Origin: Heloderma charlesbogerti
Taxonomy: Eukaryota > Chordata > Lepidosauria > Squamata > Helodermatidae
Direction: 5' to 3'
Length of the DNA: 64,000 bases
Assembly: GCA_026122225.1 (NCBI GenBank)
Contig: JANEZZ010000987.1
Span: 248,001-312,000, forward strand
Made by a program: the position numbers and the translations under genes. Below are positions 319-49,700 of this stretch, piece after piece (positions within the stretch are counted from its first letter, which is position 1; each line of letters begins with the position of its first letter). The notes beneath the pieces are model-generated. The model made no database searches. It had not been told where the DNA came from and worked only from the letters and a program-made list of their open reading frames with translations.

Positions 319-1339
319 TTAATACCGGGATGAAAATCCTTTGCAGTCAATGACTGCCTGAAGTCTGGAACCCATGGACATGACCAAATGCTGAGTTTCC
401 TCCCTTGAGATGCTTTGCCAGGCCTTTATTGCAGCTGCCTTCAGCTGCTGCTTGTTTGTGGGTCTTTCTGCCTTCAGTCTTGTCTTCAGTAAGTGAAAAG
501 CATACTCTATTGGGTTCAGATCAGGTGACTGACTTGGTCATTGAAGAACATCCCATTCCTTTGCCTGGAGAAACTCTTGGGTAGCTTTTGCTGTATGTTT
601 TGGGTCATTATCCATCTGCAATACGAAGTGGCGTCCTATCCATTTGGCAGCATTCGGCTGAATCTGAGCAGAAAGTATAGCCCTACACACTTCAGAATTC
701 CTGCTGCGTCTATCAGCAGTCAGGTCATCAATAAACACCAGTGACCCGGTTCCATTGGCAGCCATACATGCCCATGCCATAACACTGCCTCCACCATGTT
801 TGACAGATGATATGGTATGCTTTGATTCATGAGCTGTTCCTTTCCTTCTCCATACTTTTCCCTTCCCATCATTCTGGTACAAGTTAATCTTGGTTTCATC
901 AGTCCAAAGAACCTTATTCCAGAACTGGACAGGCTTTTTTAGGTGTTTGCTGGCAAAGGCTAATCTGGCCTTTCTGTTCTTGACTGTTACCAATGGTTTG
1001 CACCTTGTTGTGAAGCCTCTGTATTTACATTCATAAAGCCGTCTCTTGACTGTAGATGTTGACGACATGCCTACCTCCGCAAGAGCATTCTTGACCTGGC
1101 TGGATGTTGTGAAAGGGTTCCTCTTCACCATGAGCAGAATTCTACAGTCATCCACTTTAGTGGTCTTCCAGGCCTTTTGCTGTTGCTGAGCTTGCCAGTT
1201 AATTACTTCTTTTTCAGGATGTTCCAAACTGTTGTATTGGCCACTCCCACTGTTTTTGCTATCTCTCTGATGGGTTTATTTTGTTTCCTCACCTAATGAT
1301 GGCCTCCTTCACTCGCATGGACACCTCTTTGGGCTTCAT
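319..1339 (-). pseudogene. Tc1 transposase pseudogene (DD34E type)
   Basis: The frame encodes a Tc1-family cut-and-paste transposase. The first two catalytic aspartates are seen in LWTDETK and QMDNDPKH. The glutamate lies in NPIEYAF, 34 residues after the second aspartate, which is the DD34E spacing of Tc1. A TGA at 538-540 interrupts the frame where the family has tryptophan; beyond it the same frame runs 72 more codons to a natural TAA at 319-321. The N-terminal DNA-binding region from the likely ATG at 1337-1339 is broken by a stop and frameshifts near 1220-1300. The longest open stretch (538-1227) has no ATG at its upstream end, so it is not an intact gene. Confidence 0.93.
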
Positions 1340-4620: not shown

Positions 4621-5331
4621 GATCCTTCAGATAACTCTTTAATTAGTCTCTATGTTGTCCTCATGGAACTCAGCAGGCAAGTCCCTCCCTTACAAAGACT
4701 CACAGGCACACCACATTTTTTCTTACTGGTACAGGAGGGTCTTCATGGGCAGAAGTCATCTCATCCCATGAAGAAGTAAGGGGAGAAGGAGCAGCAATGG
4801 TGGGGGGAAGGAAAGATTGTCAGGCCTGGAGTCCATTGATCAAACAAGGATTAAGCAGCGGAGCAGGGGGGAAGCAACATGGACTTTGTTTTATTTTTCT
4901 GTGAGGTTCAGAGCTTCAGGCAGATGGAAAGCTGCCTTGAGCAGAAAATCCTCATTTAAATGTTTTAAGGAAAGAGGAAAAACATTCTGAATACTTGGTG
5001 GAGGTTGTTTTGCTTTGATTTTTCATGAGAGAGACTGCGTTATTATGAACAATAAACCCATGAGTTGGGGGACAGTGTTTAATTTCTAAAAAGAGCAGTT
5101 CAGCATATGTTGGGGAAGGCTTGCCTGACACCTACATTGTGTGTGTTTTTGGTTTCAGGCAAAGACCTTTCCTTTTTGCCAGGCATTTTAGAGCCTTAGC
5201 TTTTAGATTTTTATCACTGTTGTTGTGCTGTTCATCATTTTGTATGCTATTTTATTTAACAGTTTATAATCCATCTATTACATTAATTTGTGGGAAATTA
5301 TGCAATTTATTTTGCATATATGTCCTTTCTA
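4621..5331. other. No gene seen
   Basis: I see no supported gene or repeat in this stretch. Short open frames at 4549-4779 and 5121-5378 have no recognisable domain. Confidence 0.55.
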
Positions 5332-5332
5332 T

Positions 5333-5369
5333 CCCCTTCATGGATCACTGCCTTGTTGTGGCGAAGGGG
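5333..5369 (+). other. 5' terminal stem-loop of BovB
   Basis: CCCCTTC pairs with GAAGGGG across a roughly 23-base loop. The same potential stem is present at the 5' end of copy 2 (37142-37178, minus strand). A conserved 5' hairpin could mark the RNA start, but this is inference from two copies. Confidence 0.5.
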
Positions 5370-5397
5370 CTCGCGTAACTCAGTGAAGCCATAAGCT

Positions 5398-6430
5398 ATG
5401 CCGTGCAGAGCCAACCAAGATGGACAGGCGGAGAGTTCTGACAAAATGTGGTCCACTGGAGAAGGAAATGGCAACCCACTCCAGTATTCTTGCCAAGAAA
5501 ACCCCATAGAACGTATCACAAGGCTAAAAGAGATGACGCCGGATGATGAGCCCCTCAGGTCGAAAGGTGTCCAATATGCTACTGGGGAAGAGCAGAGGGA
5601 ATTTCCAAGTAGTGCCAGAAAGAGTGAAGCGGCTGGGCCAAAGCTGAAAGGACACTCAGCTGTGGATGTGTCTGGTGGTGAAAAGAAACTCCGATGCTGT
5701 AAAGAACAATATTGTTTAGGAACCTGGAATGTCAGATCAATGAATCAAGGTAAGCTGGAGGTAGTCAAACATGAGCTGGCAAGATTGAACATCGACATCT
5801 TGGGAAACAGCAAACTAAAATGGACAAGCATGGGCGAATTTAATTCAGGGGACCATCATATCTACTACTGTGGGCAAGAATCCCTTAGAAGAAATGGAGT
5901 AGCACTCATAGTCAATAAAAGGGTGGGAAAAGCAGTACTGGGGTACAATCTCAAAAACGATAGAATGATCTCAGTTCGAATCCAAGGCAAACCATTCAAC
6001 ATCACAGTAATTCAAGTCTATGCCCCACTGAGGCCGAAGAAGCTGAGGTCGATCGGTTCTATGAAGACCTACAACACCTTCTAGAACTAACACCAAAAAA
6101 AGATGTCCTTTTCATCATAGGGGATTGGAATGCTATAGTAGGAAGTCAAGAAATCACTGGGAGAACAGGCAAGCATAGCCTTGGTGTACAAAATGAAGCA
6201 GGACAAAGGCTAATAGAGTTTTGCCAAGAGAACACGCTGATCATAGCAAACACTCTTTTCCAACAGCACAAGAGGCGACTCTACACATGGACATCACCAG
6301 ATGGTCAATATCGAAATCAGATTGATTATGTCCTTTGCAGCCAAAGATGGAGAAGCTCTATACAGTCAGTCAAAACAAGACCTGGAGCTGACTGTGGCTC
6401 AGATCATGAGCTGCTTCTTGCAAAATTTCG
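5398..6430 (+). pseudogene. BovB endonuclease domain, decayed
   Basis: The frame 5398-6084 carries the AP-endonuclease-like N-terminal half, including LGTWNVRSMNQG and VALIVNKRVGKAV. The glutamate of the SELKW motif, part of the metal-binding active site, is replaced by lysine (SKLKW). A frameshift near 6035 moves the rest to another frame, where the GDWNA motif is still readable around 6122. The segment continues to QIDYVLC and SDHELLLAKF at 6319-6430. Nicking activity is not expected from this copy. Confidence 0.85.
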
Positions 6431-8789: not shown

Positions 8790-10470
8790 CCAGAACAGGC
8801 CTAAATAATTTGCTACCTGCTTTGGGGCCTAAGAGCAACTTAATTATAAATGATAATAAGTCTAAGGTCTTAGTGTTTACTAACCATTATAAAAACACTA
8901 AGGGTGCAATCCTATTGAGATAGTCGGCAGCCTCCGAAGCTGGAGGCTGCTGAGTATCCAATGCAGGGCACCCATAGCCCATAGGTGATCCTTGCCTCCA
9001 TGCTTTGACTGCCCTGCATTTTTGGCTAGCTAGGCGATTTTGACTGTCTAGCTCTGGCTTCAGGGAGGGAAGGAGGCCACATGGCACATAGGAAGCTACA
9101 TAATGCGGCTTCCGCAGTTGCCTCCCCTCCCCCAGGGCCCCTTCTCCACGGTCCGTTTCATAGCATGGAGATGTAGCTGGCATGGGGAGAACCACGCTGT
9201 CGATGGGGTGGGAAGCACGGTGGGGGAGGAGGTGGGAAACACGGTTTCTGAGAACCACGTTCAGAGCCAGTTCCTGGACACCGGAAAATCCTATGGCCCT
9301 TTTGACAGTGTCTAGTGACCATAGGATTGTTCCGTAAGTCTACTAACCACTAAAATAGAACAACTTACCCATATAAAATATTAAGGTACTCAAATGCAAA
9401 ATACAGTTTCCTGGTCTGAACAACGAAAGCAGGTCATTGATTCTGCTAATGGTGGTCAAGAGACAATCTCAAGGATTTTGTTGTTGTTTCACACAAGGTG
9501 GCCATATTATATTTTCAGTTATTCCACCCAGATAGTTTCTAGAAAAGTCTTCTATTTATGACTTTTATGACCCTGCTGCAAAAATGGAATTCTATGAGGG
9601 GTCCAGACAACATAGTTTTGTCTGTAACTGTTCTGTGTTTTCCCATAGCTTCTTCCATCTTTTTTCTTATCAGAGAAAATCCATTAATGAAGGATAGAAG
9701 AGCTGCACAATTTTAACTGGTAGTGCTAGGAGCACTATCTGAAAGCACTGCAGTTCTATGGCTCAACTTACTTTTGGCATTACCATATGAATTTCTGGCT
9801 TCAACTCTAAACTGGAAAGGGCCCAATTTAGTTTCCATAGAAAACATTTGGGTTTACCACCCTGTGTAGGAAATGGAACTATATATAAGGAAGTGGGCAT
9901 ATGATCAATTGAATATAAAGCTTGGTTAAAGCTTGGTGGTTACATTTGCATTTTCCCACTATTTCCTTTAGTTACATTCTGATTCTTTTGTCAGTCAATG
10001 GATATGGGTTATAAAAAAGAAGATTCTTTTGCTGGGTTTTCAGACATCAACTATTTATAACTATAGGAGAGCATTTATGGTTGCTCACTTTAATGTGCTT
10101 CCCCCAGCTTTTCTAACTGACCACTTTGCTAACAAGATTCCACTTAATGAGCAACTTTGTCCTTGTGGAATCTGAAAAGTAGAATCTGTTGGCTATGTTC
10201 TTTCATATTACAGTTTGTACAGGGAGCTGAGAGAGTGGTTGATTCTCCATGTATAAAAACTCTCCTCAGAAGAGCCACTGAACCTCTGATATCATTCTGT
10301 TTAAGGGATGGCTCTATCCATATTACTAAAAATGTAGCTAAATTCTTTTTATCCTCAATACAAATTAGGATGACCGGCCTTTTGGTGCCTCTGTGATTTT
10401 GTTTTTTTATTCTGTATTAACTTTGTTGTATTAATGTTTATTGATCTGTGACCACAATAAACTATTATTC
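8641..10470 (+). mobile_element. Degenerate non-LTR retrotransposon, unidentified clade (family 'X')
   Basis: Translation of 8641-8900 gives a decayed reverse transcriptase region with LLFSVLLNNLAS, a degenerate remnant at the YADD position, and SKSKVLVFTN-like residues. After the MITE at 8902-9334 the chain continues with YLGT and WSEQ-like residues. Near 10158-10230 a CPCG followed by a decayed His/Cys pattern resembles the C-terminal zinc-knuckle of LINEs. The 3' end at 10430-10470 (TGTGACCACAATAAA) resembles the family copy at 63071-63760. Many stops make it an old insertion. I cannot assign it to a named clade with confidence. Confidence 0.65.
8902..9334. mobile_element. Harbinger-like MITE, 433 bp (family H, copy 1)
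   Basis: The ends are GGGTGCAATCC and GGATTGTTCCG, flanked on both sides by TAA (8899-8901 and 9335-9337), the 3-bp target duplication typical of PIF/Harbinger. Just inside the left end a hairpin (GCAGCCTCCGAAGCTGGAGGCTGC) is conserved in position with the copies at 14377-14492 and 56241-56639. It interrupts the older LINE. It has no transposase. Confidence 0.8.
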
Positions 10471-10479
10471 CTTTCAAAA

Positions 10480-10568
10480 GCAACATGCAGATGGGATGAT
10501 TCAGTAGATAGTATATACTTGTACTTACAAAAAGCATTCATCAAAATCCTTCATCAAAGACTCCTGAG
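10480..10568 (+). mobile_element. CR1 LINE, upstream part of a split copy
   Basis: The frame here reads a decayed YLYLQKAFIKILHQRLLS, matching the conserved CR1 reverse transcriptase block with LDFSKAFDKVPH-type residues. The copy continues at 11458 after an inserted hAT element; the last 8 bases (CTCCTGAG) are repeated there. Confidence 0.85.
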
Positions 10569-10802
10569 TAGGGATGTCAGAGAATTCCGCCACGGATCTC
10601 GGGGAGGCCGAATGCCAGCGCATTCCGCCCCCCGAAATCGGTGGCGGAACGGTCTGCCACCCCCCCCACCCCCCAGTGACAGGACTTACCTTGGGCGGAT
10701 CTTCCTGGTGGCGGCAGCTCCGGCGGAGGCTCCGGCGGCGGCGGCAGCCGGTCTTCCGACCAGCTGCCGCCGCCGCCATTTCCAGTTTAAAAAAAAAAAA
10801 AA

Positions 10803-11183
10803 GTGATAGGCTACATAAATGTTTACGTAGCCTATCACGGCTGATTTAAAAGAAAAAGAAAAAACGCGCGTACGCAAATGGCGGCGCCCATGGGCGCCGC
10901 CATTTGCATTCCTTATTTTGGCACGTCTTAGTCTACGTAAACATTTACGTAGACCAAGACGGCGAAAATAAGGGGAACACAAATAGCGTAGACGCTACGC
11001 TATTTGCATTCCCCTTATTTTCGCCGTCTTAGTCTACGTAAATGTTTACATAGACTAAGACGTGCCAAAATAAGGAATGCAAATGGCGGCGCCCATGGGC
11101 GCCTCCATTTGCGTACGCGCGTGTGTTTTTTTCCTTTTAAATCAGCCGTGATAGGCTACGTAAACATTTACGTAGCCTATCAC
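10803..11183. repeat. 381-bp palindrome built of seven smaller palindromes
   Basis: The centre is base 10993. Hairpins are A 10803-10838, B 10876-10905, C 10925-10960, D 10981-11005, C' 11026-11061, B' 11081-11110 and A' 11148-11183. Each start and its partner's end sum to 21986, so the arms are aligned with no net indel. A has GTGATAGGCTAC arms, B has AAATGGCGGCGCCC arms (perfect over 34 bp from 10874 to 10907), C has GTCTACGTAAA arms and D has AAATAGCGTA arms around a 5-base loop. Mismatches between arms are few and often C/T. Confidence 0.97.
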
Positions 11184-11191
11184 GGCTGACT

Positions 11192-11241
11192 GCAGGGACG
11201 CAAACAGCAGCGGCTATGGCCACCGCCATTTGCGTCCCTGC
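11192..11241. repeat. Additional hairpin right of the main palindrome
   Basis: GCAGGGACGCAAA pairs with TTTGCGTCCCTGC around a 24-base loop. It has no mirror partner on the left side, so the element is not fully symmetric outside 10803-11183. Confidence 0.85.
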
Positions 11242-11457
11242 TAGCCAGCGGCCAGATGTCCGGCCGGTGGCAGAGCCGGCCGGCCAGCGGCTCTGCAGAA
11301 TCCCTGCGGAGCGGAGCCAGCCGGCCAGGATTCCGGGGGGGGGGGAGGAATGGAGCGCCTCCCCCCCCGGCGAGGATTCCGGGCGGAGGGACGGAATGCC
11401 TCCCCCCCCAACCATTAGCATAATCCCCGAAAGGTAAGTGATTTTTGTACATCCCTA

Positions 11458-12193
11458 CTCCTGAGTCAACTGATCAGTCATGGGATAAGACATTAGGTCT
11501 GGCTATGGTTAAAGCAGCATAGGGTAAGAATAAATGGAAAGTTTTCACAATGGAGGAAAGTAAACCGTGTCGTCGTCCCCCATTCTGTGTTGGGACAAGT
11601 GCTATTTGGTTTATTTATAAACAGTGAGGAAGCCATGTTTGCAGATACCACCAAATTATTCAAGATGCTTAAAATGGAAGCAGACTGTGAAGAACTCCCA
11701 AAGGATCTTGCCAAACTAGGTAAAACAAGCAATAAAATGGCAAATGCATTTCAGTGTAAGTAAACATAAAGTGATGCACACTGAGGCAAAAATAATATCC
11801 TAACTACACTGATACATTGACAACGTCTGCTCTGCCCTGACCAGCCAGGAAAAAGATCTGGAGGTCTTGGTGGACCACTTAGTGAAAACATCAACTCAGT
11901 CTGCAGCAGCAGCAGTGAAATAAGGCAAATTCCATTTTAGGGACAAAACAGGGAGGGATTGAAAATAATAGTTTTGATAACATTATCACAGTCATTATGC
12001 CTTTATACAAATCTGTTGTTCAGCTGCATTTGGAATACCGCAAATAGTTCTGGCAGCATTCACCATGTCAAGATGAATCTTGTAGAACCAAAAAAGGCAC
12101 AGAAAAGGGCAATCAAATTGATCAAGATGTTGGAGGCCATGCCTGGAAAGAAAGGCTAAAGTGTCTGAGACTTTTCAGTTTAGCTAAGGGCGA
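11458..12193 (+). mobile_element. CR1 LINE, downstream part of the split copy
   Basis: The chain continues the CR1 reverse transcriptase with decayed blocks: FADTTKLFKML-like residues near 11640 (the catalytic FADDTKLF region), a HKVMH block near 11765, a QLHLEYR-like block near 12025 and a KKAQKRAIKLIKMLE block near 12095. It is cut at 12193 by the Gypsy LTR, just where CR1 would read SLAKGD. Several frameshifts show it is old. Confidence 0.85.
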
Positions 12194-25925: not shown

Positions 25926-27690
25926 TTGTGTGGGCGTCCTCTTTCTTCAGGCACGGTGACTTGGATTACAGCTCCACTCACTCTGCGCGCCCAGTCCCAC
26001 GTTGAGCAGATTCAGTTTCACTTGGCCAAGGTTCCCCAATACCCAATCGTGCTGGGTGTTTCCTGGCTCTCTAAGCATAATCCTCAGATTTCTTGGGGGC
26101 TTCAGCAAGTGGAGTTTGCGTCTCCCTACTGCCGGGAACATTGCCTCCCAACCGAGGTGCCAGTCCCACCCCAGGCCTTAACGCTTTCCTCCCCCTCCTC
26201 GTCTGCTTCTGGCAGTTCTTCAGCTACTGTGATCCTCCCAGAGAAATATGCGGCTTTTCTGGATATTTTCAACAAGAAGGAGGCTGACCAGCTCCCCCCT
26301 CACCGCCCTTTTGATTGTGCCGTTAACCTCATTCCTGAGGCGACCATCCCCACTGGCCGGCTATATTCGATGTCGGAGCCGGAACTTTGAGCTCTACGGG
26401 AGTTTTTGGACAAAAACCTCAGACATGGCTTCATTCGCCCCTCCTCCTCCTCCGCTGCGCCCCTACCATCTTTGTGACTAAAAAATTGGGAGAACTCCAC
26501 CCGGTGCACGATTACAGAGCTTTGAATTCGGTCTCGATCCCCAACAAGTACCCCCTCCCCCGCATACCTGAGATGCTGGAGTGCTTGGGGCGAGCCAAGA
26601 TTTTCACAAAGTTGGACCTGCGTGGCACCTACAATCTGATTCGCATCCAGGAGGGGGATGAGTGGAAGACCTGTTTCAGCACCTGGTACGGATGCCATTT
26701 GTATGAATACAAATGTATGAATGTATGAATACCTAGTGATGCCATTTGGGCTCGCCTGCGCCCCCCCACACACACACACATTTTCGCGTTTTATGAATGC
26801 CATCTTCTGGGACTATTTGGACACTTTCCTCACTGTGTATCTCGATGATTTACTTATATTTTCTGAGGACCCCCATGCCCATCAGCACCACGTCTCCACC
26901 ATCCTCCAGCGCCTCTGCAAGCACCATCTGTATGCCAAGCTGGAGAAATGTGCGTTTGACCTAACCTCTTTGGACTATCTTGGCTACATTATCTCAGCTG
27001 ACGGTATCAGGATGGATCCTGCAAAGGTCCAGGCTGTCCTCTCCGGGCAGGCTCCATCCACCAAGAAGGACTTGCAACGTTTTCTGGGGTTTGCTAATTT
27101 CTGCAGAAAGTTCCTGCCCAGCTTTGCTCAGCTGACATCTCCTCTCACAGACCTCCTTAAGGGCAGGAAATCTCCTTTTCATTGGACGGCATCTGCCCAA
27201 CAGGCTTTTGAGGAACTTAAGAAGCTTTTTAGTTCTGAGCCAATCCTGTTACATCCCGACCTGAGGAAGCCTTTTGTAGTGCAAACTGATGCCTCTGACT
27301 TTGCAGAGGGAGTGGTGCTTTTTCAGCCAGATCGGGCAGGTGGCGGGTTGCAACCCTGCACCTACCACTCCAGGAAGCTGAACATGTCTGAGAGGACTTA
27401 TACCATCTGGGAGAAGGAACTGTTGGCCATCAAGTCCGCTTTGGAGACCTGGCGTCATTTACTGGAGGGGGCACAGCACCCAGTTTAAGTTAGAACCGAC
27501 CATCGCAACCTGGAACATCTTCAGACAGCCCATGCCTTAAACCAGCGGCAGATGAGGTGGTCGCTTTTTTCCCCCTAGTTCCACCTTAAGATTTGCCATG
27601 TGAAGGCCTCCGACAACCTACAAGCAGATGCTCTTTCTCGTAAGCCGGACCTCCAGCCAGGGGGTGAGGGAAATCCCCCCCTCTGATTCT
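25926..27690 (+). pseudogene. Gypsy protease end, reverse transcriptase and RNase H
   Basis: The frame 25926-26390 covers the protease C-terminal half (VLGVSWLSKHNPQISW) and the linker to the reverse transcriptase; the protease active site itself is missing. RT blocks follow in several frames: [46 protein letters not shown] and the catalytic YLDD at 26838-26849. A small tandem insertion of GAATGTAT-like units at about 26695-26740 breaks the RT frame, and a CA run follows near 26768. RNase H is seen from QTDASDFA at about 27280. Stops at 27486-27488 and 27576-27578 are shared with copy 1. Confidence 0.92.
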
Positions 27691-34936: not shown

Positions 34937-36140
34937 TCAGGGTTGATTTCCTTTAGGATGGACTGATTGGACCTCCTTGCAGTCCACGGGACTTACTGTT
35001 GCTTCTTGACCCTCATACAGGTTTCTCAGGAGACAGGTAAGGTGGTCTGATACTCCCATCTCTTTAAGAATTTGCCACAGTTTGTTGTGATCCACACAGT
35101 CAAAGGCTTTAGCGTAGTCAATGAAGCAGAAATAGATGTTTTTCTGGAATTCTCTTGCTTTCTCCATGATCCAGCGAATGTTGGCGATTTGATCTCTAGT
35201 TCCTCCGCCTCTTCAAAACCCAGCTTGTACTTCCAGTAGTTCTCGGGTCACATATTGCTGAAGCCTAGCTTGTAGGATTTTGAGCATAATCTTGCTGGCA
35301 TGTGAAATGAGCACAATTGTACGGTAGTTTGAACACTCTTTGGCGTTGCCCTTCTTTGGAATTGGAATGTAAACTGACCTTTTCCATTCTTGTGGCCACT
35401 GTTGAGTGTTCCACATTTGTTGACATATTGAGTGCAGCACTTTAGTAGCAGCATCTTTTAGGATCTTAAATAGCTCAGCTGGAAAACTGTCATCTCCGCT
35501 AGCTTTGTTGTTAGTCATGCTTCCTAAGGCCCACTTGACTTCACTCTTGAGGATGTCCGGCTCAAGTTCAATGACCGCACTATCATGGCTATCAGGGACA
35601 TTCAGATCTTTCCTGTATAGTTCTTCTGTGTATTCTTGCCACCTCTTCTTAATCTCATCTGCTTCTGTTAGGTCCCTGCCTTCTTTGTCCTTTATCATGT
35701 CCATCTTGGCACAAAACATTCCCTTGAGATCTCCAGTTTTCTTGAAGAGATCTCTAGTCTTTCCCATTCTATTGTTTTCCTCGATTTCTTTGCATTGTTC
35801 ATTTAAGAAGGCCTTTTTTGTCTCTTCTTGCTATTCTCTGGAACTCTGCATTCAGTTGGGTATATCTTCCCCTTTCTCCCTTGCTTTTCGCTTCCCTTAT
35901 TTCCTCAGCTACTTGTAAAGCCTCATCAGACAGCCACTTGGCTTTCTTGCATTTCTTTTTCTTTGGGATGGATTGAGTTGCTGCCTCCTGAACAATGTTA
36001 CAGACCTCCGTCCATAGTTCCTCAGGCACTCTGTCTATCAAGTCTAATCCCTTAAATCTATTCCTCACCTCCACTGTATATTCATAAGGGATATGATTTA
36101 GGTCATACCTGAATGGTTTAGAGGTTTTCCCTACATTCTT
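34937..36140 (-). pseudogene. BovB reverse transcriptase remnant (copy 2)
   Basis: Frames 35799-36200, 35213-35767 and 34937-35167 carry the RT blocks NNKASGDDSFPAELFK, YIPIPKKG, EVQAGF and FCFIDYAKAFDCVD. A frameshift separates the first two at about 35770-35830, and a further one lies near 35213. The YADD box is deleted, so no polymerase activity is possible. Confidence 0.9.
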
Positions 36141-46799: not shown

Positions 46800-49700
46800 A
46801 TGACTACCTTTCTGGATATTAACACAGTAGACTACTAATATTCACAACAGAATTACATTTTCCTAATATTAATTTTAAAAAATCTTACTATTTTCAACTG
46901 ACCTTCTGGCTATCAGATAGATGTTAAATCATTACATAATCTACACCCCCTCCAAGATATAAAACTAACCATCTAATCTGTCTCATGAATTCACTCTTGG
47001 GAAAGAGTTTCCCTCATTGGTGAACATTCTGGGGTCACTGGCCATCTTTTCAGAGTCCAGTGTTGAGAAGTGTGATGCCAGTAAAAACATTCTGTTTATT
47101 TTTGGGTTGACTTAGGTTTCTAAATTTAGCTACCCATATAGAGGAATCTTAAATATTATATAACAACAGAAATATTAATTCATTTAGATGCTGAATTACT
47201 TCCAGAAATATTATACAGATGGTGTTTTTAAGAATCTTTTGCATTTAAAAAAAATGTAAATCACAATTGCTATGTTATGTGGCTTTGGATAATAAACTTC
47301 CCTTCTAGGGTGCCAGTGAAAACAGATTCCCATTTGAAAAATAAACATCCTATGTCCCTTAAACGTAGCACCTCAAAACACACTCACTTCATCAATAAAA
47401 CTGAAGTTGTTTAGTTCCTGTTGAATCAGCACAATTAAAATATACCGACTCTGCTATTACTGCCTCAAGCTAGAGCCTGCGGGCACAGCATTTTTGCCTT
47501 TTTAAATGTTTACAGGAGGACCTGCAGCTGCTGATGTGGGTTTTTTCACACAACATCTACAGGGATTCACTCATAAGAAAGTAGAGAAACACATTTATTG
47601 GGTGCAATATTGCTCAAAGACCATCGGGGGCATCAAGATTGGAAAAAATGCCTGTGATGTTTTACCTTTCAGGAATGACCTGTATAAAGAGGAAACAACT
47701 GTTGACCCATTAGTCTCCAATTTGTCCTACAAGAGTGTAATGCTAGGATTTAAATGTAATGGCAGGGAGTAATGTCAGGATCATTATTTAATCTTAGGAA
47801 ATAAATACATCCCTACTGTCCAAACACCATTACTCTCATAGGCCACAATCCAGAGATTTGTGCAACAAATTCCATGCAACCAGGCAAAGCTTTTGATTCT
47901 CTCTTTATCCATCAAACAGTATTCTCATACACTATGTATCAAGTCACTTTCGAAACTCAAAGGAGTTCATAAGGAATTCAAAGGAGGTGGAGTCAAAAGT
48001 ATGCTGTACTTGACAAGACATGATTTTTCACTGTCTTTAGAACTAAAAAAGAATGTACTGTTTTTTAATTGGCTGTTTTAATGTATTTATCACTTTTGAG
48101 TAACACCCAGATCACTGAGAACATAATTATTCCCAAAGTTAGAAGAGTAGGGTTGTTGCAGCAGGTGATGCAGGAGAATTACAATAAGAATGAAGTTTTT
48201 ATATTACTCTTGCAACTTAGTTTCGTAGATCAGCACTTTATCAAGATGACTTGTCTTCTAGTCTTTACTCCCAGTGTGTGAGCCCAGTCCAGAGATTTTG
48301 CTAGCAATTATCAGCAACGAGAAGAGAGCTGTTGCAATTCAAAGTATATGTTTTGACAACAATGGTATGGAAAGGGAGCATAGCCACTGCAACCCTCAGT
48401 TCTTCCAACTCAATATATCTAGGGCTGATTCAGAGCTGGGTTGTCAAAGTCATGATGGCGCCTCTTTTCAAAGGACAAGCCAGTCTTTCTCTCATTCTCC
48501 AACTGATGAGGTTTGTTTGTTTATATAAATGTATTTATTACATATTTATATTCACAATAGCTGAGGTAACTAGAAAGAAGCAAGTTGATTAGGCAAGAAA
48601 AAGAACTCCACTAGAGCCACAGTCCTTGATAGCTTGTACGTTAAGCGTAGCAACAAACACTTGGAGCTGAGCATGTGCCAAATCTTCTCCTTCACCCAGA
48701 CTTTTGTATGTTGCATTGAATGGATGCTGAACAGAATACTGAGTTTAGATTCTGTTCCACTATTCAAATTTGTAGCTGGCTAACACAGATTTTTGCTCAG
48801 AAGATCCCATGTCCTGAAATTCTTGTTACTAGGACATCCTTTTGCATGTCAATTGCTAGGATTTTGCTTATACCATATGCAGTTATAGGAAAGGTTTGAC
48901 AGACTGCAGTGTCTGGAAACCAGGGCCGTATCTATATGGCACTGATTTCATTGTTTGCTCAGTAAGAGCTGTGCAGTATTAGCTCTGCAAATGATGGGAG
49001 TGTTAATGCAGACTTCCCAAGCTGGGAAGAGCAGAGAGCACAGAGCTGGGGAGGAGGGTGCACGACTAGCATGTAGGACTTGCTTGCGACTAGATGTTCA
49101 TAACAAACCCCGCATACACATTTCTGACGTGGGCAGGCAAGCAGGCAGCCACTGCCTCTGGAGATTGAGCCCACACTGAGAGCAGAGAGTGCGGAGCTGG
49201 AGAGGAGGAGAGAGCGAGTAGCACTTAGTCTATTAACTGCCCAATCAACAGTCGTCTCCCCCCCACCCCCGCACAACCACAGGCTCAATGAAGTGCTTCT
49301 GAGTACATGTTTATGGAAATCATCTGCCCTGCCACCCAGCCTTTCTCAACTGCACAGCTTTGAATCCACAGGCATCCAGCGTTGCTCAGCTGTGTTCCTT
49401 TGTAGCTGAATGTCTCCACTCTCAGGCTCGATACTTAAAGTGAGAGAGGCAGTGACATGGAACTGAAGGCAATGAGCTACTTCCCGGTAGACCTGTTTGC
49501 CCCTTTGCTCTCCCCCAGCTTCTGCCCCAGGCTAATTTCCCTTCCACCCATCAGCATGGCTTCCACCAGCCCACTTCTTCATCCCTCTGTAACTGTGGAG
49601 CTGTGAAGGAGGAATGGGAACGGGCATCACTAAGACCCTGCAATTTCAATCCGAGGGAGGGACAGACAGCTCAACCCCCTGCAGTGAACCCGAAGCAAGT

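Follow-up and report, generated by a model that had tools for sequence, protein, structure and literature searches.

A hAT-ended non-coding element family of Heloderma charlesbogerti whose palindromic core is probably kept perfect, and inverted, by copying between its arms

How does a palindrome that is itself composed of smaller palindromes come to be carried by a mobile element, and what keeps its two halves alike? The question is raised by an 889-bp element at positions 10569-11457 of the window, by which we mean the whole stretch of 64,000 nucleotides of Heloderma charlesbogerti DNA that was analysed. The element has 9-bp inverted ends (TAGGGATGT and ACATCCCTA) and carries the same 8 bp, CTCCTGAG, on either side; both features, which a preliminary description of the locus had claimed, are present at 10561-11465. 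The short terminal inverted repeats follow the pattern TAGGG.TG, which we take to be of the Ac type. The long terminal inverted repeats of foldback elements are absent, the termini being 9 bp long and the 189-nt arms internal. No stop-to-stop frame of at least 110 aa lies within 10569-11457 alone, and the single frame of this size overlapping the element (123 aa, 10435-10806) begins outside it. The element is a non-autonomous hAT-superfamily MITE, ordinary in its ends and insertion and unusual in its core. Its parts, with the strand where one applies, are:

10561..10568, left 8-bp target-site duplication CTCCTGAG
10569..10577 (+), left terminal inverted repeat TAGGGATGT
10571..10663, left subterminal hairpin, arms 10571-10604 and 10630-10663, 79% complementary
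10684..10692 (-), outward-facing AAGGTAAGT, left copy; candidate splice-donor-like or subterminal inverted motif
10734..10777, GC-rich hairpin, to the left of the core
10803..10991 (+), left arm of the core palindrome
10803..10838, hairpin A (X type, X1)
10874..10907, hairpin B (Y type, Y1)
10924..10961, hairpin C (X type, X2)
10992..10994, 3-nt spacer ACG, centre of hairpin D (Y2); read against the ends, other copies carry either ACG or CGT
10995..11183 (+), right arm of the core palindrome
11025..11062, hairpin C' (X3)
11079..11112, hairpin B' (Y3)
11148..11183, hairpin A' (X4), inside the inverted repeat 11142-11189
11192..11241, further Y-type hairpin Y4, beyond the mirrored core
11338..11409, right subterminal hairpin, arms 11338-11366 and 11381-11409, 76% complementary
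11431..11439 (+), outward-facing AAGGTAAGT, right copy; counterpart of 10684-10692
11449..11457 (-), right terminal inverted repeat (ACATCCCTA on the plus strand)
11458..11465, right 8-bp target-site duplication CTCCTGAG

A third TAGGGATGT lies in the window at 47807-47815 (-), and AAGGTAAGT, a candidate splice donor or subterminal transposase motif, is also found in related families (L015, L053).

The core arms, 189 nt each, are 95% complementary and indel-free, with 10 differences, and are separated by the 3-nt spacer ACG. The order A-B-C-D-C'-B'-A' described earlier is exact: the pairs A/A', B/B' and C/C' mirror about base 10993, with start-plus-end sums of 21986. The hairpin design, previously labelled A to D, kept its mirrored order and could be refined, as there are just two hairpin types, X (CTACGTAAAYRTTTACGTAG) alternating with Y (GCAAATGGCG..CGCCATTTGC), in a ladder that continues outside the mirrored core with the Y hairpin at 11192-11241 and, in fuller copies, an additional X0. 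With up to three mismatches, the X pattern was found at four places in the window, every one inside this element. The ten arm differences and the unlike sequence on either side speak against the locus being an assembly fold. The predicted RNA fold of the core had an energy of -324.8 kcal/mol, compared with a shuffled mean of -100.07, and the minimum-energy structure was a single long stem; of the two folds proposed before, the long stem was thus obtained and the chain of stems was not.

The ratio of observed to expected CpG was 1.65 in the core (10803-11183), 1.35 in the family consensus and 0.27 in the window. This richness would suit a core that serves as a two-way regulatory array, with putative palindromic protein-binding sites in a CpG-rich block and outward splice donors at both ends, as would the outward-facing AAGGTAAGT or AGGTAAG that lies close to each end of this element, of L015 and of L053. 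However, the outward motif may be a subterminal transposase site and the high CpG may merely reflect the founder. We consider such an array unlikely, though compatible with the explanation that we favour below.

Genome searches were made with the core (at least 102 matching stretches; best 40 of 3629 candidates scored), the left end (best 40 of 872 candidates scored) and the right end (best 40 of 3953). The 103 loci examined included 95 with BLAST-defined ends and 92 with both ends and flanks. In 92 of the 95 copies, some of which were recruited by similarity to an end, both ends were within one mismatch of TAGGGATG and CATCCCTA and the flanks were in hand. hAT MITEs make 8-bp target duplications, and the 8-bp duplication seen in the window recurred elsewhere, matching at 7 or more of 8 bases in 79 of the 92 copies (58 exactly), compared with 12 of 8372 pairs in which the two flanks came from separate loci. 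In the 2.3-Gb genome, the X hairpin with at most two mismatches gave 91,439 forward and 91,129 reverse matches, and a reversed-pattern control gave none; since the pattern is almost identical to its reverse complement, the two counts describe about 91,000 places. At no more than three such hairpins per element, this suggests some 30,000 elements or more, other hairpin arrangements being possible. The element is multi-copy, a point on which the preliminary description had let its reading depend, and the many copies, the 8-bp duplications and the occurrence of the same terminal sequences beside hAT transposase genes, on different gene copies, support the assignment to hAT-type mobile elements.

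The copies were 537-1580 bp long (median 917), and the span of the longest (1580 bp) may be composite. At least 90% of the core was kept in 13 of 28 left-end-seeded copies (27 delimited) and in 22 of 37 right-end-seeded loci (31 delimited). Among the core gaps of at least 40 bp in end-seeded copies, 5 of 17 matched the spacing of like modules, and repeat collapse therefore accounts for just part of the losses. Module number varies among short copies (L061, L064, L068 and others), and in some copies, L068 among them, a palindrome is centred on X rather than Y2. Family elements were also seen nested in a similar-ended element and in hAT transposase copies (L066; L077:603-1161; L078 and L123 joined, 4989-5769). 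Flanks repeated in opposite orientation with 99.7-100% identity were found for L035/L036 and L031/L032 on the same contig and for L048/L049 and L116/L119 on different contigs, and these copies are likely assembly or haplotype duplication artefacts; at such identity they were uninformative on alleles and were set aside as an allele test of orientation. Viral contigs and phages, searched for the element with a low prior, gave no match.

The core palindrome was then compared across copies. At least 90% of the core was present in 71 copies, and dropping the low-identity L070 and L088 left 69. In the consensus of these 69 cores, the 191-bp arms are mirror images apart from the central spacer pair, and an earlier consensus from 53 elements had 0 mirror mismatches. 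Of the 53 elements, 52 differ from that consensus by 5.0-12.1%; the remaining one, L022, stood at 27% while set in the wrong orientation and was later re-oriented by its outer sequence. Judged from sequence, perfect consensus arms combined with diverged copies indicate that the source palindrome was perfect and that the copies have decayed since. Outside the poly-A spacer, the non-CpG allele sites private to a copy numbered 65 in the left arm and 78 in the right, three of them being mirrored within the copy that carries them, which indicates little correction once a copy has inserted.

Substitutions at mirrored positions of both arms were far commoner than expected by chance. In the 69 copies, with the identical pair L116 and L119 retained here and in the spacer counts, 29 same-copy mirrored changes were found at non-CpG sites outside the poly-A spacer, compared with 4.0 under permutation (500 permutations, sd 2.2, maximum 12). 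The corresponding cells were 66 vs 15.9 expected for all non-CpG sites and 136 vs 75.4 expected when CpG sites were included. As a control, mirror partners were slid in 40 copies analysed earlier: the true mirror (191 pairs) gave 85 same-change cells, and slides of 1, 2, 5 and 10 columns (178 pairs) gave 8, 11, 5 and 6. Among 16 allele rows present in three or more copies, two of which are supplied by the spacer pair itself, five were clearly mirrored (446/548, 443/551, 425/569, 398/596 and 391/603), three were partial and eight were confined to one arm. Six of the eight one-arm rows are transitions, each in at most five copies, and may be recurrent mutation. This does not account for 306 C>A (5 left, 0 right) or the spacer row 496 A>T (1, 7), nor does it apply to 326 G>C, a partial row with 7 on the left, 2 on the right and 1 in both arms. 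Site 425/569 was also counted genome-wide in 3330 cores with exact 11-base seeds on both arms: 228 carried the change in both arms, 123 in one and 2979 in neither, where independence predicts 25 and 529 for both arms and one arm. The 123 one-arm places correspond to 1.85% per arm, and later mutation could supply all of them. Three copies (L054, L057 and L067) have common mirrored transversions and a centre that could not be scored as ACG or CGT, and are possibly a separate subfamily.

Paired mutations selected to preserve a hairpin structure, whether of RNA or of DNA, would also keep the arms complementary and could leave a similar pattern. The core fold is very stable, one paired X-stem change separates the families described here (GTAA/TTAC to GTGA/TCAC), and the flanking Y hairpins of the 40 copies held 3 and 4 mirrored non-CpG changes where 0.3 and 0.4 were expected. 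In the same copies, however, each of the five X hairpins, like the central Y, had 0 or 1 mirrored non-CpG change, whereas the mirror across the whole core was strong. Copies L061 and L064 lack most of the core and yet have exact target-site duplications, although the loss may have followed insertion.

A second family, with ends TAGGGATGGCGG and CACCCCTA, is built to the same plan (best 40 of 5930 candidates scored) and bears directly on this point. Its arms, compared through a consensus of four copies, differ from each other at 14 of 243 columns, the figure for the main family being 0 of 190, and differences between the families amount to 22-26 of 169. At 29 columns that differ between the families, 18 were altered in both arms of the second family and 11 in one. 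The Y hairpins of the second family contain an internal mismatch that is itself mirrored between the arms; it is therefore the large mirror, not the local hairpin, that is kept, and the mirror persists where the local hairpin is broken. The centre reads AAATA in one of the four copies and TATTT in three. We regard selection on structure as improbable, and a selected RNA structure, one of the reasons for the core put forward previously, is not needed to explain the data.

The spacer of the main family is likewise found in both directions. Relative to the asymmetric ends, it was ACG-type in 41 of the 69 copies, CGT-type in 23 and unscorable in 5, the ACG class including the CpG-decay forms ATG and ACA and the CGT class CAT and TGT. 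Exact spacer patterns tied to the right outer sequence gave 1199 ACG-type and 894 CGT-type matches genome-wide and 0 for controls, the intact CpGs of these seeds restricting the sample to copies with less decay. When mapped on the outer-sequence tree, spacer orientation required 17 changes, compared with about 19 after shuffling (109 and 95 of 500 shuffles were as low), and a single clade for orientation was rejected (p-AU 2.4e-40). The outer tree is weak, with 4 of 60 inner branches well supported, and those branches force 4 changes; cores may also have been exchanged between copies, blurring the count of independent flips on it. The arm tree, with 0 well-supported branches, gave 19 changes vs about 19 shuffled. 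Mirrored 425A clusters on the outer tree (5 changes vs 7.7, with 2 or 3 of 500 shuffles as low), and the eight mirrored 425A copies with a scorable spacer are divided into four per orientation.

These orientations bear on a further alternative, in which one half served repeatedly as the source for rebuilding the palindrome, giving each subfamily a fresh mirror without continuing exchange between the arms. Rebuilding also yields mirrored subfamily changes and near-identical arms inside a family, and the additional partial core carried by copy L018 would fit it. It would, however, have to recur while preserving module order, arm length and ends, and by itself it leaves the tree-scattered spacer orientations unexplained. 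We think it quite unlikely.

The explanation that we favour, with a probability of roughly 0.7, is that of a hAT-ended non-coding element whose palindromic core is kept perfect, and repeatedly inverted, by arm-to-arm copying in an active source lineage. A replication or repair polymerase would switch across the centre from one arm to the other, and a single switch could both copy a variant of one arm into the other and invert the spacer. The copying, whether by template switching or by arm-to-arm conversion, would mainly precede the settling of a copy. Homogenised arms are seen in the mirrored changes, the family comparison and site 425/569, and spacer inversion is seen in the main family and in the second. 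The combination of the two leads to a reading as template switching between inverted repeats, which is reported in yeast to homogenise arms and invert the spacer in a reversible manner, with arms of about 7-16 bp and including a flip with 11-bp arms (PMC8604942). Changes that extend identity in quasi-palindrome arms are generally credited to template switching (PMC3820800). Among the reasons for the core listed in the preliminary description, a replication intermediate fits best, because homogenisation of the whole mirror in the source lineage and inversion of the spacer fit arm copying; no serial hairpin capture was seen. What these data establish is the product; they point to a timing mostly before a copy settled, but not to an enzyme.

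Homologous gene conversion and crossing-over between the 191-bp arms, in place of template switching, would give the same product. The arms of sex-chromosome palindromes undergo gene conversion. Only the centre between the 191-bp arms occurs freely in both orientations (23 of 64 scorable copies were CGT-type); in the 17-19-bp X hairpins, 3 of 340 loops, each of 2 nt, were flipped, and flipping is therefore tied to long arms. Because these short hairpins almost never flip, unlike the short arms in yeast, conversion that needs longer homology stands as an equal rival. Against it, arms of 191 bp fall on the short side for homologous recombination to be efficient in vertebrates. As a choice within arm-to-arm copying, we hold it to be a real possibility at somewhat less than even odds.

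A more far-reaching form of arm-to-arm copying would have each jump reset the arms to perfection and re-toss the orientation of the centre, with settled copies decaying. During excision, gap repair or replication of the moving copy, one arm could then template the other, and the two-level design, a mirror of palindromic tandem modules, would let arms, modules and the whole core pair in many registers. We offer this tentatively and consider it rather doubtful.

Among known elements, the fish hAT-related Angel and Tol2 have a palindromic internal repeat. The hAT MITEs of the Drosophila mar type resemble the present family in their short ends, non-coding nature and high copy number, whereas here the long inverted repeat is internal and two-level, the arms co-evolve and the centre occurs both ways (PMC3517528). 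Yeast template switching is alike in its homogenised arms and reversible spacer inversion, but concerns arms of about 7-16 bp in genes, in contrast to 191-bp arms in a mobile element with thousands of copies (PMC8604942). The coding palindromes of Nematomorpha mitochondria, the longest of which is 284 bp, share perfect inverted repeats, paired substitutions in both arms and overlapping repeats, and differ in being mitochondrial, coding and non-mobile (PMC6649704). The Foldback-type elements Galileo and Tetris also have long inverted repeats, and homogenisation has been suggested for the internal tandem repeats of Tetris; their long repeats are terminal, whereas the present element has short ends and an internal palindrome (PMC2775673, PMC4079207). 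Coral CMITEs are MITEs with an internal region unusually conserved between families, but are piggyBac-related, and their abstract makes no mention of a nested palindrome (PMC2872659). No report of a self-homogenising palindromic MITE was found among the top matches listed from an open-access library, which lacks most subscription papers. The perfect-source core, the mirrored arm substitutions and the spacer in both orientations are what the present analysis adds.

Animal genomes usually have few long palindromes that are near perfect, and a review gives 718 palindromes of more than 200 bp for the human genome (PMC7999016). In H. charlesbogerti, one mobile family has spread a long palindrome, now partly decayed, to thousands of places. 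Every copy logs the state of its arms and the orientation of its spacer, and the family is therefore a natural assay, with thousands of replicates, of the frequency with which inverted repeats undergo self-copying and flipping in a vertebrate germline.

The transposase is probably supplied by the Ac-like hAT genes of the genome. Matches to the hAT dimerisation domain (best 150 of 871 candidates) had frames of up to 908 aa. Five hAT copies were read as one group (L077-L081), with PF05699 (Pfam) in the two that were scanned, and we take this group to be Ac-like. One copy of the group has an apparent left end, TAGGGATGTCAGAGAA (L122:990), and two others have apparent right ends, TTCGTACATCCCTG and TTCGTACATCCCTA (L124 near 168, L125 near 1085), all of them resembling the family consensus; both ends and a duplication in one transposase copy were not found among the hAT copies read. 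One hAT right end also bears X/Y modules, possibly native to it and possibly brought in by an insertion. A search of L077-L081 for transposase ends by exact duplication and inverted ends gave no credible element, and an internal ACATCCCTA in L080 that resembled an end was rejected, as it sits in sequence common to the copies. For copy C, the left end with the expected duplication was found at two exact places, neither on the contig of that copy, and none of the one-mismatch places listed was on that contig. At L120:1-1696, upstream of a hAT gene, there is a tandem array of 95-bp units, given as two rows of 6.4 and 11 copies; it is far shorter in another hAT copy.

The window also contains frames of other mobile elements. 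Frame 35213-35830 (-) matched no family in a Pfam scan and is presumably BovB-like, and the BovB-like frames of the window would agree with a squamate host. Frames 538-1275 (-) and 26721-27488 (+) matched a Tc3-type transposase and a reverse transcriptase with RNase H, respectively (Pfam).
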